Shown: piece by piece, positions 5,554-54,126 of the stretch | Layout: the number at the start of each line of letters is the position of its first letter | Numbering within the stretch: position 1 is the first letter of the stretch | NCBI RefSeq assembly: GCF_003426945.1 | Contig: NZ_QURO01000004.1 | Coordinates: 1,054,001-1,118,000, forward strand | Direction: 5' to 3' | DNA from: Thermus sediminis | GTDB lineage: Bacteria > Deinococcota > Deinococci > Deinococcales > Thermaceae | Length of the DNA stretch: 64,000 bases | Program-made: the position numbers and the translations under genes | The notes under the pieces: model-generated | What the model saw: the letters and a program-made list of their open reading frames with translations, nothing else | The model's database searches: none | Told to the model about the DNA's origin: nothing

Positions 5554-6624
5554 ATGGCCCGGGCTAGGATGTACCCTGAGGGTATCTTGCACCCCACCCT
5601 CGAGCTCCTGGACCCCCTGAACCCGGTGCGGCGGCGGATGGCCCTCTGGCTTCTGCCCCTAGGAGGCCTCCTCGCCCTGGTGGCCCTCCTGGCCTCGAGG
5701 TCTGGCCTAGACCCCGTGGACCGGGTCTTCCTCCCCCTCATGGCCGTGGGCCTCCTCGTCCTGGCCTTGTCCCTGAAGCGCTACCCCGCCTCCGCCCGCT
5801 GGGCCATTCCCACGGCCCACGCCCTCATCGCCCTCTACCCCTTCTCCACCCTCACCTACCAACTCCTCTCCGCCGCCAACCCCCAGAGCCTCTCCCCCGC
5901 CACTTTCTGGGTGCCCTTCCTCTACTTCTCCGGCTACCTCTTCTTCCCCACCCAAAAGGCCCTGCGCTTGGCCCTCCTCTACCTCCTTGGCCTCTTTCTC
6001 CTGGCCCTTTTGGGAAGCCTCCGGGGCCACTACACCCCCGTGCACCTCAACGCTCTGGCCCAGTTCCTGGGCTCCAACCTGGCCTACTTGGGCCTCCTCT
6101 CCCTGCTGGTCCGCCTCAAGGAAGGGTACTTCGAGGCCCAGCTGGACGCCTATACCGACTTCCTCACCGGGCTGAGAAACCGGCGCTACCTGGAGCTCGT
6201 CCTGGAGCGGGAGCTCTTCCGCGTGGCCCGCTACGGCCGCCCCCTCTCCCTCGTCGTCCTGGACCTGGACGGCTTCAAGGGGGTGAACGACACCCACGGC
6301 CACGAGGTGGGGGACCGGGTCCTTCGGGCCCTCGCCCAGTGCCTGGAGGCCCACCTTCGCCAAAGCGACCGCGCGGTGCGCCTTGGGGGAGAGGAGTTCG
6401 CCTTGGTGCTGCCCGAAACGGCGCTTCCCCAGGCCTTCCGCCTGGCCGAGCGCCTGCGCCAAGGGGTGGCCGCCCTGAAGGTGCCCCCGGTAGAGCAGCT
6501 TTCCGCGAGCTTCGGCGTGGCCCAGGCGAACCCCACCGACTCCCCCCTCTCCCTCCTCAAGCGGGCGGACGAGGCCCTCTACCGGGCCAAGCGCCGGGGG
6601 AAAAACCGGGTGGAGAGCGCCTGA
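5554..6624 (+). CDS. Membrane diguanylate cyclase (GGDEF domain)
   Basis: Makes cyclic di-GMP from two GTP. The N-terminal ~200 residues are mostly hydrophobic, with about six membrane segments and no recognisable ligand-binding domain. The C-terminal GGDEF domain has LDLDGFKGVNDTHGHEVGD and the signature GGEEF, so it should be active. An RxxD product-inhibition site (RQSD) sits five residues upstream of GGEEF, as in feedback-inhibited enzymes. ATG 5554 is preferred because CATGAT lies 6 nt upstream; ATG 5569 is an alternative. The open frame reaches back to 5401 only by reading through repeats. No c-di-GMP phosphodiesterase or receptor gene is in the window. Confidence 0.9.
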   Translation: MARARMYPEGILHPTLELLDPLNPVRRRMALWLLPLGGLLALVALLASRSGLDPVDRVFLPLMAVGLLVLALSLKRYPASARWAIPTAHALIALYPFSTLTYQLLSAANPQSLSPATFWVPFLYFSGYLFFPTQKALRLALLYLLGLFLLALLGSLRGHYTPVHLNALAQFLGSNLAYLGLLSLLVRLKEGYFEAQLDAYTDFLTGLRNRRYLELVLERELFRVARYGRPLSLVVLDLDGFKGVNDTHGHEVGDRVLRALAQCLEAHLRQSDRAVRLGGEEFALVLPETALPQAFRLAERLRQGVAALKVPPVEQLSASFGVAQANPTDSPLSLLKRADEALYRAKRRGKNRVESA

Positions 6625-6786
6625 ATCCTCGTAGGAGAATTCCACTCCTCTAGCCCTCCTAAGCCGAAGGAAACGCCCTTTCCTTTGAGGGCCCCCTCTA
6701 CCCGCCAGGGGGCGTTTAAGGGTTTTGTAAGCCCCCCTGAGGAGGATGGAGGTATGGACCCTGGGGGTCCCGGAAAGGAGGCAAGG
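6625..6786. other. Intergenic region with candidate hairpins
   Basis: Between the diguanylate cyclase and the lipoprotein gene. It holds a small hairpin (TAGGAG...CTCCTCTA, near 6630-6652) and a longer inverted pair (ACGCCC near 6673 / GGGCGT near 6711, followed by TTTAAGGG) that could end the upstream transcript. The lipoprotein has a strong Shine-Dalgarno (AAAGGAGG, 6774-6781). I could not identify a convincing promoter. Confidence 0.35.
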
Positions 6787-25014: not shown

Positions 25015-26706
25015 ATGACCGAGACCACCTGGGACCTGACCCCCCTCTTCCCTAGCTTGGAGAGCCCGGAGTTCCAAAGGGCTTGGGAGGGCCTAAGGGC
25101 CCGCATCGACGGGCTCAAGGACCTCCTGGAACGGGAGGCCCCCCTTTCCGAGGTACTCTCCGCCCTGGACATCCTCCTCGAGGAGGCCCTTCCCCTCCAC
25201 GCCTACCTCTACGCCCGCTTCAGCGCCGACACGGGAGACGAAGCCGCCTTGGCCAAGCTCTCCGAGCTGGAGGTTCTCTTCTTGGACTATCAACGCCTGA
25301 GGCCCCGACTCACCCGCTATCTGGCCCTCAAGGAACCAGAGGAGGCCGGCCCTTACCGCCTTCTGGTGGAGGAGGCCAAGGAGGAGGCCCTCCACATGAT
25401 GCCCGAGGGGGAGGAGACCCTGGCGGCCGAGCTCTCCCTCTCCGGGCGGCGGGCCTGGGCCAAGCTCCACGAGAACCTCACGAGCCAGATCACCGCGGTG
25501 GTGGACGGGGAGGAGATGCCCATCAGCAAGGTGCGCAACCTCTACCTCCGCCCCGAGGAGGAGGTGCGCAAGAAGGCCTACAGGGCAGAGCTTCTGGCCT
25601 GGGAAGGGCACGAGGTGCCCCTGGCCTACGCCCTGAACGGCGTGAAGGGGGAAGCGGTGGTCCTGAACCGGAGGCGGGGCTACAAGGACGACCTCGAGCC
25701 CTCCCTCCTGCAAAACCGCATCACCAGGAGGGCCCTTTCCGCTATGCAGGAGGCGGTGAAGGAAAGCCTTCCCCTTTTCCGGCGCTACTACCTCCTGAAG
25801 GCCAAGGCCCTGGGCAAGGAAAGGCTGGATTTCTACGACCTCTTTGCCCCCATCGGCCAGGGGCGGCGTTGGACCCTGGAAGAGGCCCGAAGCTTCCTTG
25901 TGGAGAAGCTTTCCGCCTTCTCCCAAAACGCCGCCCAGGTGGCCGAGGCCGCCTTCCTTGAGCGCTGGATGGACCTCCTGCCCCGCAAGGGCAAGGTGGG
26001 CGGGGCCTACTGCATGCCCAGAGGTGGGGGAAAGAGCCTCATCCTGGCCAACTACGAGGAGAGCTTCGAGTCCCTTTCCACCCTGGCCCACGAGCTGGGC
26101 CACGCCTACCACAACTTCGCCCTGGCCCGGGTCCCCGCCTCCCTGCGGGACGTACCCATGACCCTGGCGGAAACGGCCAGCATCATGAACGAGACCCTGG
26201 TGGTGGAGGCCGCCCTCAAGGAGGCCTCCCCCGAGGAGGGTCTTCTCATCCTGGACGCCTACCTCCAGGGGGCGGCCCAGGTGGTGGTGGACATATATAG
26301 CCGCTTCCTCTTTGAGTCCCGGGTGTTCCAAAAGAGGGGGGCCCGGGAGCTCTCCCCTAGGGAGTTCAAGGAGCTCATGGTGGAAGCCCAGAAGGCCGCC
26401 TACGGGGAAGCCCTGGCCTCCTTCCATCCCTACATGTGGGCGGTGAAGGGGCACTACTACGGCGCGGACTTCTACAACTACCCCTACACCTTCGGCCTCC
26501 TCTTCGGCCTGGCCCTCTACCGCGAGGCCAAGGAGGACCCCGCCTTTATGGAACGCTACGAAACCCTCCTATCCGAGTCCGGCATGCGCAGCGCCAAAGA
26601 GCTCGCGGGCCGCTATGGCTTTGACCTGGAAAGCCCAGAGTTCTGGCGGAAGGGCCTGAAGGTTCTGGCCGAGAAGGTGGAGGCGCTGGAGGGTCGCCTT
26701 GCCTGA
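25015..26706 (+). CDS. pepF: Oligoendopeptidase F family M3 metallopeptidase
   Basis: Cytoplasmic zinc peptidase degrading short peptides. The HExxH site is LAHELGHAYHNF (about residue 360), with the third ligand Glu in ETASIMNETLVVEA. The N-terminal ~180 residues are the helical lid of the PepF/M3B type. 563 residues, typical. It uses its own ATG with a close -10 box and no ribosome site. Repeat copy 3 begins in its TGA stop. Confidence 0.93.
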   Translation: MTETTWDLTPLFPSLESPEFQRAWEGLRARIDGLKDLLEREAPLSEVLSALDILLEEALPLHAYLYARFSADTGDEAALAKLSELEVLFLDYQRLRPRLTRYLALKEPEEAGPYRLLVEEAKEEALHMMPEGEETLAAELSLSGRRAWAKLHENLTSQITAVVDGEEMPISKVRNLYLRPEEEVRKKAYRAELLAWEGHEVPLAYALNGVKGEAVVLNRRRGYKDDLEPSLLQNRITRRALSAMQEAVKESLPLFRRYYLLKAKALGKERLDFYDLFAPIGQGRRWTLEEARSFLVEKLSAFSQNAAQVAEAAFLERWMDLLPRKGKVGGAYCMPRGGGKSLILANYEESFESLSTLAHELGHAYHNFALARVPASLRDVPMTLAETASIMNETLVVEAALKEASPEEGLLILDAYLQGAAQVVVDIYSRFLFESRVFQKRGARELSPREFKELMVEAQKAAYGEALASFHPYMWAVKGHYYGADFYNYPYTFGLLFGLALYREAKEDPAFMERYETLLSESGMRSAKELAGRYGFDLESPEFWRKGLKVLAEKVEALEGRLA

Positions 26707-52355: not shown

Positions 52356-53156
52356 TCACACCTCCGGCACCACCTCCACCTTATCCCCTCGGCGCAGGCG
52401 AAAGCGCCTAAGGTCCTCCTCCAAAAGCCCAAGCCGCCCGGGGATGTTGGGCCTGGGGCGCACCTCTATAAGGATCCCCGAGGGGCTAAGCCTCAGGCGG
52501 AACCCGTGGCGGATGACCCGGGCCCACTCCGCATAAAGGGGCTCGTCCACGTAGGCCATCCCCGAGCCCGGGCCGTAGATGGGGAGGACCAGGAGGGAAA
52601 CGGGGGAAAGGGAAACCACGGGGACGGCCTCGAGGACCCCCATCTGAAGAAGGGTGTTCAGAACGCGGGCCAGGCGCAAGGGGCCTGGGGCCAGGAGGAC
52701 CTCGGCGATACGCCTCCCCTCCACCTGGGCCAGAACCCCCAAGGCCTCGGGGGAAAGCTCCACCTCCCTACCCCCTGGGCCCAGGCGGAGGCGGTAACCC
52801 CAGTCGGCGGGCAGGTTCAGCCCTCCCCACGCCGCCTGGGCCTCAGCCAAGCGGGCGGGAACCGCCAATCCCCCGAGGAGGGTGGTGCGGGGGGGGAGGG
52901 CCTCGGGCTCAAAGGCGAAGGGACCCTGCTTGAGCCCCGCCAGGAGGTCCAGGGCCTCCTCCCCTTCAAGGCCCCGCTCCCCGGCCTGGACCCGCGCGTG
53001 GACCACCTGCCCTCCCCTCAGGTAAACCTCGGCCTCCAGAAAAGGGGGGCGGACCAGGAGCCGCCCCGTGCGCCCGGCTCCCATGAGGGCGCCCACCAGG
53101 GAAGAAAAGGGAAACTCCGCGAGGTTACCCGAAAGCATTCCTCCCCGTTTTACCAT
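52356..53156 (-). CDS. DUF4388 domain protein
   Basis: 266 residues. N-terminal DUF4388 (MLSGNLAEFPFSSLVGALMG + AGRTGRLLVRPPFLEAEVYL), common in Deinococcus-Thermus and Myxococcus regulators near GTPase or response-regulator systems. A helical middle part follows (SPEALGVLAQVEGRRIAEVLL, wing-like), and a C-terminal beta part (FRLRLSPSGILIEVRPRP). Start uncertain: ATG 53156 or 53138. Coupled to the symporter. Confidence 0.75.
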   Translation of the reverse strand: MVKRGGMLSGNLAEFPFSSLVGALMGAGRTGRLLVRPPFLEAEVYLRGGQVVHARVQAGERGLEGEEALDLLAGLKQGPFAFEPEALPPRTTLLGGLAVPARLAEAQAAWGGLNLPADWGYRLRLGPGGREVELSPEALGVLAQVEGRRIAEVLLAPGPLRLARVLNTLLQMGVLEAVPVVSLSPVSLLVLPIYGPGSGMAYVDEPLYAEWARVIRHGFRLRLSPSGILIEVRPRPNIPGRLGLLEEDLRRFRLRRGDKVEVVPEV

Positions 53157-53341
53157 GCCCCCCTTCGGGCGTCCAGGCGGGGCGGTCCGGGACATGAACC
53201 TCTGCCCCCGCGGCTTCACCCCGCACCCCGGGCCTCCCTCCCCGGCCGGAGCAACAGGCCACCTGGCCTTCCCGGATGGCGGCCACGACCCCCTCCTGGG
53301 CCAGGATCGGGAAGTGGTAGCCTGAGCGGTGAAGGGATAAC

Positions 53342-53370
53342 TTATTGCTACCGATACTCACTTGCAATAA
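53342..53370 (+). promoter_or_regulatory. Inverted-repeat operator of the ZIP gene
   Basis: TTATTGC (53342-53348) and GCAATAA (53364-53370), 7-bp perfect arms 15 bp apart, covering the -35 and entering the -10. Position and AT-richness suit a metal-sensing repressor of the Fur/Zur/MntR class; the identity is inferred. Confidence 0.55.
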
Positions 53371-53373
53371 AAT
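53345..53373 (+). promoter_or_regulatory. ZIP transporter promoter (leaderless)
   Basis: -35 TTGCTA (53345-53350), 17-bp spacer, -10 TAAAAT (53368-53373), then 6 nt to GTG 53380. Confidence 0.65.
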
Positions 53374-53379
53374 ACGGCC

Positions 53380-54126
53380 GTGGAGGCCTTAGCCATCTCC
53401 CCCTGGACGGTCTTCCTCTACGCCCTCCTCACTGCGGTGGCCACCGGGCTCGGAGCCCTGCCCTTCCTCTTCACCAGGAACATCCTGAGGCGGCACCTGG
53501 GCCTGGCCCAAGCCGCCGCCGCAGGGCTGATGCTTTCCGCCAGCTTCGGCCTCATCTACGAGGGGGTGGATTACCACCTGGGCCGAACCCTTCTCGGGGT
53601 CTTGTTGGGCCTCATCTTCATCCAGCTCTCCCACCGCTACCTGGAGGGGCGGGAGGTAAGCTTCGGTATTCTAAACGGCCTGGACGCCCGCAAGGCCTTG
53701 ATGATCGTGGGGATCATGACCCTGCACTCCTTCGCCGAGGGGGTGGGGGTAGGGGTGGCCTTCGGGGGCGGGGAGGCCTTGGGGGTCTTCATCACCCTAG
53801 CCATCGCCGTGCACAACATCCCCGAGGGGCTGGCCATCAGCCTGGTCCTGATCCCGAGGGGGGTGAGCGTTCTGGGAGCCGCCTTTTGGAGCGTCTTCTC
53901 CAGCCTGCCCCAGCCCCTCATGGCCGTGCCCGCCTTCCTCTTCGTGGAGCTATTCCAACCCGCTTTGCCCGTGGGCCTGGGCTTTGCCGCCGGAGCCATG
54001 ATCTGGATGGCGGTGGCAGAACTCCTCCCCGACGCCCTCAAGGAGGCGGAGGCCAGCGGGGTGGCCACCGCCCTCACCCTGGCCGTGGCCCTCATGGTGG
54101 CCTTCCAGATCCTCCTGGGGGGCTAG
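53380..54126 (+). CDS. ZIP family metal transporter
   Basis: 248 residues, eight membrane segments. The metal-path motifs are clear: TLHSFAEGVGVGVA in helix IV and AVHNIPEGLAISLV in helix V. Loop 3-4 is short and lacks the His-rich stretch of eukaryotic ZIPs. Likely imports Zn2+, possibly Mn2+ or Fe2+. Leaderless promoter overlapped by an inverted repeat, consistent with metal control. Overlaps sfsA convergently by 4 bp. Confidence 0.92.
   Translation: MEALAISPWTVFLYALLTAVATGLGALPFLFTRNILRRHLGLAQAAAAGLMLSASFGLIYEGVDYHLGRTLLGVLLGLIFIQLSHRYLEGREVSFGILNGLDARKALMIVGIMTLHSFAEGVGVGVAFGGGEALGVFITLAIAVHNIPEGLAISLVLIPRGVSVLGAAFWSVFSSLPQPLMAVPAFLFVELFQPALPVGLGFAAGAMIWMAVAELLPDALKEAEASGVATALTLAVALMVAFQILLGG

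Follow-up and report, generated by a model that had tools for sequence, protein, structure and literature searches.

The promoter of a ZIP-family metal transporter gene in Thermus sediminis carries an inverted repeat, and we asked whether this repeat is a regulatory operator and which type of sensor would read it. The analysis covered a stretch of 64,000 nucleotides (the window), in which the sequence of positions 53342-53382 is TTATTGCTACCGATACTCACTTGCAATAAAATACGGCCGTG. The first-pass annotation had described this segment as an unusually AT-rich island in which the arms TTATTGC and GCAATAA overlay a promoter, and both descriptions held. The GC content is 41.5%, a level at or below which only 41 of 63,960 windows of equal size were found, and reading of the sequence confirmed that TTATTGC (53342-53348) and GCAATAA (53364-53370) are both exact, with an N15 spacer. 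At three mismatches or fewer, the arm pair gave a single match in the window against an average of 0.21 in shuffled sequence. Since 19 of 100 window shuffles contained at least one such match, mismatch-tolerant arms are not rare by themselves, whereas the exact pair is. Across the 2.16-Mb genome the pair was unique at zero to two mismatches, with seven further places at three. The palindrome continues inward, where TTGCTACCGATACTCACTTGCAA agrees with TTGCAARYGATAAYYRCTTGCAA at 20 of 23 positions (the runner-up in the window reached 15). We refer to the resulting 29-nt imperfect palindrome at 53342-53370, which was given no strand and has a 23-nt core at 53345-53367, as box 1; its designation as an operator draws on the exact arms, the orthologs and the sharing with fbpA described below. 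The window copy is a weathered version of TTATTGCAAGTGATAATCACTTGCAATAA, which is perfect in Calidithermus. Its centre, CGATACTCA, is likewise degenerate relative to the Fur-like TGATAATCA, which occurs exactly at many fbpA sites and in the Calidithermus loci L028 and L029.

Box 1 overlaps a predicted promoter. A -35-like hexamer, TTGCTA (53345-53350, plus strand), lies within the box, and a -10-like hexamer, TAAAAT (53368-53373, plus strand), has its first three bases in common with it. Both hexamers were assigned by consensus scan, which gave the layout TTGCTA, 17 nt, TAAAAT, the 6 nt ACGGCC and a GTG at 53380, and TTGCTA-17-TAAAAT was the sole promoter-like match in positions 53000-53600 (shuffles averaged 0.0). 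Leaderless genes with a -10 element adjoining the ORF are common in this phylum and account for about 30% of ORFs (PMC12340547). The ORF that follows (53380-54126, plus strand) encodes a protein of 248 aa that matched Pfam Zip (50.7 bits, cutoff 35.1) and BbZIP structures, and that stayed below the cutoff of the NCBIfam ZupT equivalog NF003243 (70.8 versus 252 bits). Full-length orthologs with 87-92% identity were present in 25 of 26 other Thermus genomes, with fragments in the remaining one, G025. The predicted overlap of an operator with a leaderless ZIP promoter, as proposed in the first-pass annotation, thus stands. Box 1 also overlaps what is left of the 3' part of a decayed alpha/beta-hydrolase gene (53257-53370, plus strand), recognized by reading the frame against relatives, and the last stop of this remnant lies inside the operator. 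In L003 and similar relatives the hydrolase gene (a Pfam hydrolase in L003) is intact upstream of the ZIP gene, and the box ends at its stop codon. The remnant in the window genome has two earlier in-frame stops and the box is intact. Judged from these sequences, box 1 outlives the decay of the gene that overlaps it.

To see how widely the box is kept, the upstream regions of 30 ZIP orthologs (-200 to +60, with 16 minus-strand loci reverse-oriented) were compared, the named loci being those of Thermus species and Calidithermus. A related box was found upstream of all 30, with best palindrome matches of 18 to 29 out of 29 positions. The palindromes of the Calidithermus loci L028 and L029 are perfect (14/14), and symmetric variants occur in single relatives (CTGATAATCAG in L028, GTAGTAACTAC in L030). 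Over the 30 loci, symmetry was 0.643 at the axis of the box compared with at most 0.464 at other axes within 30 nt, in windows that had been pre-chosen by palindrome likeness.

The 30 loci have 27 distinct ZIP boxes, from which a sequence-only profile (R1) was made and then searched, at E<=1, against 27 Thermus genomes. The search returned 55 rows, made up of 27 ZIP places (three repeated on the opposite strand) and 25 others, so that a box was found at the ZIP gene in every genome; 26 of these genomes had also trained R1, and G025 had not. All 25 non-ZIP places lie beside iron or peroxide genes, namely fbpA (15), VIT1 (4), 1-Cys peroxiredoxin (4), FeoA (1) and an ABM monooxygenase (1), identified with Pfam on representatives and from sequence for the remaining copies. 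Their E-values ranged from 0.002 to 0.42 per genome and many are individually weak. Because each R1 place alone is weak, the evidence for a regulon is the agreement of the genes. A second, symmetric 23-nt profile (R2) was trained on the ZIP and non-ZIP groups, and is therefore not independent of those classes. At E<=3 it gave 117 rows, corresponding to 25 ZIP places (the ZIP boxes of G003 and G006 were missed) and 35 others, and all 35 fell into the same classes (fbpA 23, peroxiredoxin 5, VIT1 4, ABM 2, FeoA 1). Three of the Thermus genomes without an R2 match at fbpA scored 19 (G022), 17 (G017) and 16 (G025) of 23 there, and the fbpA boxes of L177 and L179, two loci at contig ends, scored 15 and 16 of 23. 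Relative to the start codon, the box is placed differently at fbpA, VIT1 and peroxiredoxin genes than at ZIP genes. At fbpA, box 1 stands upstream of a likely TTGACT promoter and not on it, so its action there may differ.

In the T. sediminis genome itself, R2 at E<=3 found two sites, one at the ZIP gene and one at fbpA. The fbpA box (locus L089) reads TGCAAGCGATTCTCACTTCTA, and the gene product matched the iron-binding protein 3wae/4elo, which we take to be T. thermophilus entries, with an E-value of about 1e-167. The first-pass annotation had stated beforehand that the lack of a metal response and of a second occurrence at metal genes would speak against its reading; the repeat recurs at fbpA in this genome and at iron/peroxide genes throughout the genus. 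The arms alone do not show this regulon, because an arm-only pattern with up to two mismatches found no second place in the genome. A core-only pattern (up to three mismatches) gave 45 rows there and its reversed control 49, and is for this reason without power by itself. Eight loci with core-only matches were inspected (L088-L095) and only L089 was kept, on account of its fbpA gene and its recovery by R2. Outside the genus, R2 at E<=0.5 found eight places in seven of 15 genomes, of which five are at ZIP genes, one at an FTR1 permease gene, one at fbpA and one between the genes for glutamyl-tRNA reductase and a class-III aminotransferase, probably hemA and hemL. Of the ten genomes from other genera that carry the ZIP gene, five had no box there in this search. 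Only one of 69 additional homologs from beyond Thermus and Calidithermus scored at least 16 of 23, namely L202 from a Thermaceae metagenome-assembled genome (MAG). Going by the R2 search in other genera and these homolog scores, box 1 looks confined to the Thermaceae and near kin.

Which proteins could read such a box? A search with PF01475 found three Fur-family proteins in the genome, L031 (C4:1309980), L032 and L033. Alignments to B. subtilis PerR (2fe3) showed that L031 and L032 carry H37, D85, H91, H93 and D104. These residues are the PerR ligand set, and Fur proteins have Glu at position 104, according to an excerpt of PMC4866751. No Fur-type protein with Glu at this position was present among the three Fur-family proteins; since L031 and L032 have D104 where Fur has Glu, no classical Fur was found. 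L032 exceeded the cutoff of the NCBIfam PerR equivalog (232.1 versus 200 bits), and L031 stayed below that of its best NCBIfam model (72.5 versus 180 bits). L033 matched Zur structures best and is without His37, but at position 84 it does not show the Cys that Zur proteins typically have. Presence and absence of the paralogs, of which eight of 11 relatives have three and the other three have four, did not separate the candidates. Box 1 was not found upstream of L031, L032 or L033, so there is no autoregulation that would tie one of these paralogs to it.

A second element, AATCCGACCGGAATACTTGACTTT, gave a lead on how the paralogs may be divided. At iron-uptake genes it lies over the likely -35, and in the T. 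sediminis genome it occurs near L089 1501-1560. Scores of at least 19 of 24 were reached in 36 of 37 fbpA loci (35 distinct places; L183 scored 18) and in 4 of 4 FTR1, ABM and FeoA loci, and in none of the 30 ZIP, four VIT1 and six peroxiredoxin loci. In the 150 nt preceding L032 and three orthologs in Thermus, the element scored 16 to 18, compared with at most 15 for the other 24 Fur-family genes. The link between L032 and AATCCGACCGGAATACTTGACTTT is a lead only, because 13 of 226 background loci without the element also reached at least 16 somewhere in about 3 kb. If L032 reads AATCCGACCGGAATACTTGACTTT and L033 the Zur-like motif discussed below, L031 is left for box 1. By this elimination L031 is the mildly favoured candidate for the box 1 sensor, and L032 may hold that role instead, with a chance of roughly one in three. 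In G028, a genome of genus g3 with no R2 box, the ortholog of L031 (L156) no longer has either of the CxxC pairs that usually form the structural zinc site, yet a weaker box-like sequence is still present at the ZIP and fbpA genes.

We consider it quite probable that box 1 is the operator of a dimeric sensor of the PerR/Fur type, which would make the ZIP gene a member of an iron/peroxide regulon. The first-pass annotation had seen in the sequence a pointer away from Fur, and this part did not hold: box 1 departs from the textbook Fur box in its outer arms, yet the core, TGATAATCA, is Fur-like and the genes that share the box are iron and peroxide genes. The same outer TTGC/GCAA arms, along with the absence of box 1 at any Fur paralog, could be taken to mean that a regulator from another family reads the box and also governs the iron genes. 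We regard this as unlikely, given the Fur-like core, the iron/peroxide gene set and the availability of PerR-type proteins that have no other assigned box.

A rival reading is that box 1 is a Zur operator. ZIP proteins are often zinc importers, a Zur-like protein (L033) is encoded in the genome, Zur controls zupT in Cupriavidus and Francisella (PMC6103462), and E. coli Zur boxes resemble box 1 in length and placement (excerpt of PMC8000910). Zinc-loaded L033 would then repress the ZIP gene. The motif upstream of the T. sediminis zur gene (L033) is different, however: it reads TGAAAATTGCTTCTCA, and among the zur loci listed TGATAA...TTATCA-like sites are present at five of five non-Thermus orthologs (L159, L164, L166-L168), the one at L164 being imperfect. 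In L170, a stretch of 13 kb, the two best matches to TGATAA-N4-TTATCA (15/16 each) are located at 1007-1022, 21 nt before a cobW gene, and at 6632-6647, just before an unclassified gene (5802-6623) near a ZnuA-family gene. Together, these two sites would define a small zinc regulon. Within the window, the Zur-like motif matched best at 25898 (12/17), away from the ZIP gene. Box 1 was found at iron/peroxide genes and not at the genes with the Zur motif. The view that box 1 is not a Zur site was thus supported, inasmuch as the Zur-like motif differs and stands at other genes, and a Zur operator at the ZIP gene seems improbable. Instead of a zinc sensor, an iron or peroxide sensor probably controls the ZIP transporter.

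A conserved promoter could in principle account for the box by itself, the inverted repeat being a by-product of promoter hexamers set in AT-rich spacer sequence. The -35 and the -10 do both overlap the box, leaderless promoters with an adjacent -10 are common in the phylum, and over the 30 loci paired change across the dyad was not in excess (245 of 378 cells paired, shuffle average 249.9). We nevertheless give this reading little credence, since the spacer, which a promoter leaves unconstrained, holds the core, which is found again at fbpA, VIT1 and peroxiredoxin genes, and since the Calidithermus palindromes are perfect. The genome also encodes one DtxR-type protein over cutoff (L186), and ZIP proteins can move manganese. 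The other ZnuA-family gene (L138) has TTTAGGCATGCCTAA upstream, an MntR-like palindrome. At L171:4032-4047 the MntR-like palindrome before a ZnuA-family gene reads TTTAGGCATGCCTAAT, which points to manganese control of that transporter. That box 1 is an operator for manganese control by L186 is very improbable, as TTTAGGCATGCCTAA stands before a ZnuA-family gene, is unlike box 1 and has its best window match (11/16) away from the ZIP gene. As far as the motifs can tell, box 1 is a third class beside the Zur-like and MntR-like ones.

For a PerR/Fur-type sensor, repression would work through the overlap of the box with the promoter. The metal-bound sensor, most likely carrying Fe(II), would sit across the -35 hexamer and the spacer and reach into the -10; because the dyad covers this whole stretch, one or two bound dimers should exclude RNA polymerase from the leaderless ZIP promoter. 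Iron scarcity, or peroxide oxidising the iron site of the sensor, would release it, and the ZIP protein would then be made together with the fbpA product. In other Thermus species VIT1, 1-Cys peroxiredoxin, FeoA and the ABM monooxygenase would be released as well. Peroxide would be as likely a trigger of release as iron shortage, given that VIT1 and peroxiredoxin genes carry the box too. The ZIP protein may move Fe(II), or Mn or Zn under peroxide.

A wider scheme can be put forward tentatively, as one possibility among several. In the Thermaceae, which on this view have no classical Fur, a single PerR-type sensor (the L031 orthologs) may govern peroxide defence as well as iron uptake by way of an extended operator that differs from the classical Fur, PerR and Zur boxes, and the ZIP protein may be an iron-regulon transporter for Fe(II), or for Mn(II) in a protective swap. 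Each paralog would have one box: TGATAA-N4-TTATCA for Zur, AATCCGACCGGAATACTTGACTTT for L032 and box 1 for L031. If this were true, a widespread lineage of 'zinc transporters' would be re-annotated. The likely role of the ZIP protein shifts from zinc to iron/peroxide metabolism, and the operator motif comes with a list of likely iron/peroxide-controlled targets across the genus Thermus, which serves as a model thermophile. In the open-licence PubMed Central literature we found no account of a Fur or PerR box for Thermus and no description of box 1.

Box 1 was compared with the closest known systems. With the Fur box (consensus GATAATGATAATCATTATC) it has in common an odd-centred palindrome, the TGATAATCA centre and a place at iron-uptake genes. 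It differs in its flanks, TTGCAAG/CTTGCAA instead of GATAA/TTATC, in conserved arms that reach 29 nt at the ZIP gene, and in that the T. sediminis genome has no Fur-type protein with Glu104. Over its full length box 1 matched neither the classical Fur nor the PerR consensus, as the flanks differ, and the Fur 19-mer reached 14/19 at best upstream of non-Thermus homologs. The PerR regulon of B. subtilis, going by its known gene list, also has a Fur-family sensor with H37, D85, H91, H93 and D104, and box 1 likewise stands at peroxiredoxin and iron-handling genes and, in one relative, at genes of the heme type; some ABM proteins have a heme role. The letters of box 1 differ from the B. subtilis PerR box, TTATAATNATTATAA, and its gene set includes fbpA and FeoA, which are typically targets of Fur. 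The E. coli Zur box, as given in an excerpt of PMC8000910, is likewise about 30 nt long and overlaps -35 and -10. It has another sequence, and the Zur-like sites of the T. sediminis genome lie elsewhere. In a separate observation, ZIP homologs in Pseudophaeobacter, Tritonibacter, Shimia and Actibacterium, which we take to be Rhodobacterales, have upstream sites like TTAGAA-N3-TTCTAA, which resembles the Irr iron (ICE) motif of alphaproteobacteria. These sites scored 15 (L257), 14 (L259 and L260) and 13 (L255) of 15, with downstream controls at 8-10; a score of 13 is not decisive, because L233 (Hyphomicrobiaceae) and L201 (Fodinibius) reach it too. The motif and its regulator differ from those of box 1. 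Irr represses under iron depletion, according to an excerpt of PMC3413700 that names Irr boxes without giving their letters, so the direction of regulation may differ. Since four ZIP homologs carry such sites, iron control of the ZIP lineage may nonetheless recur.
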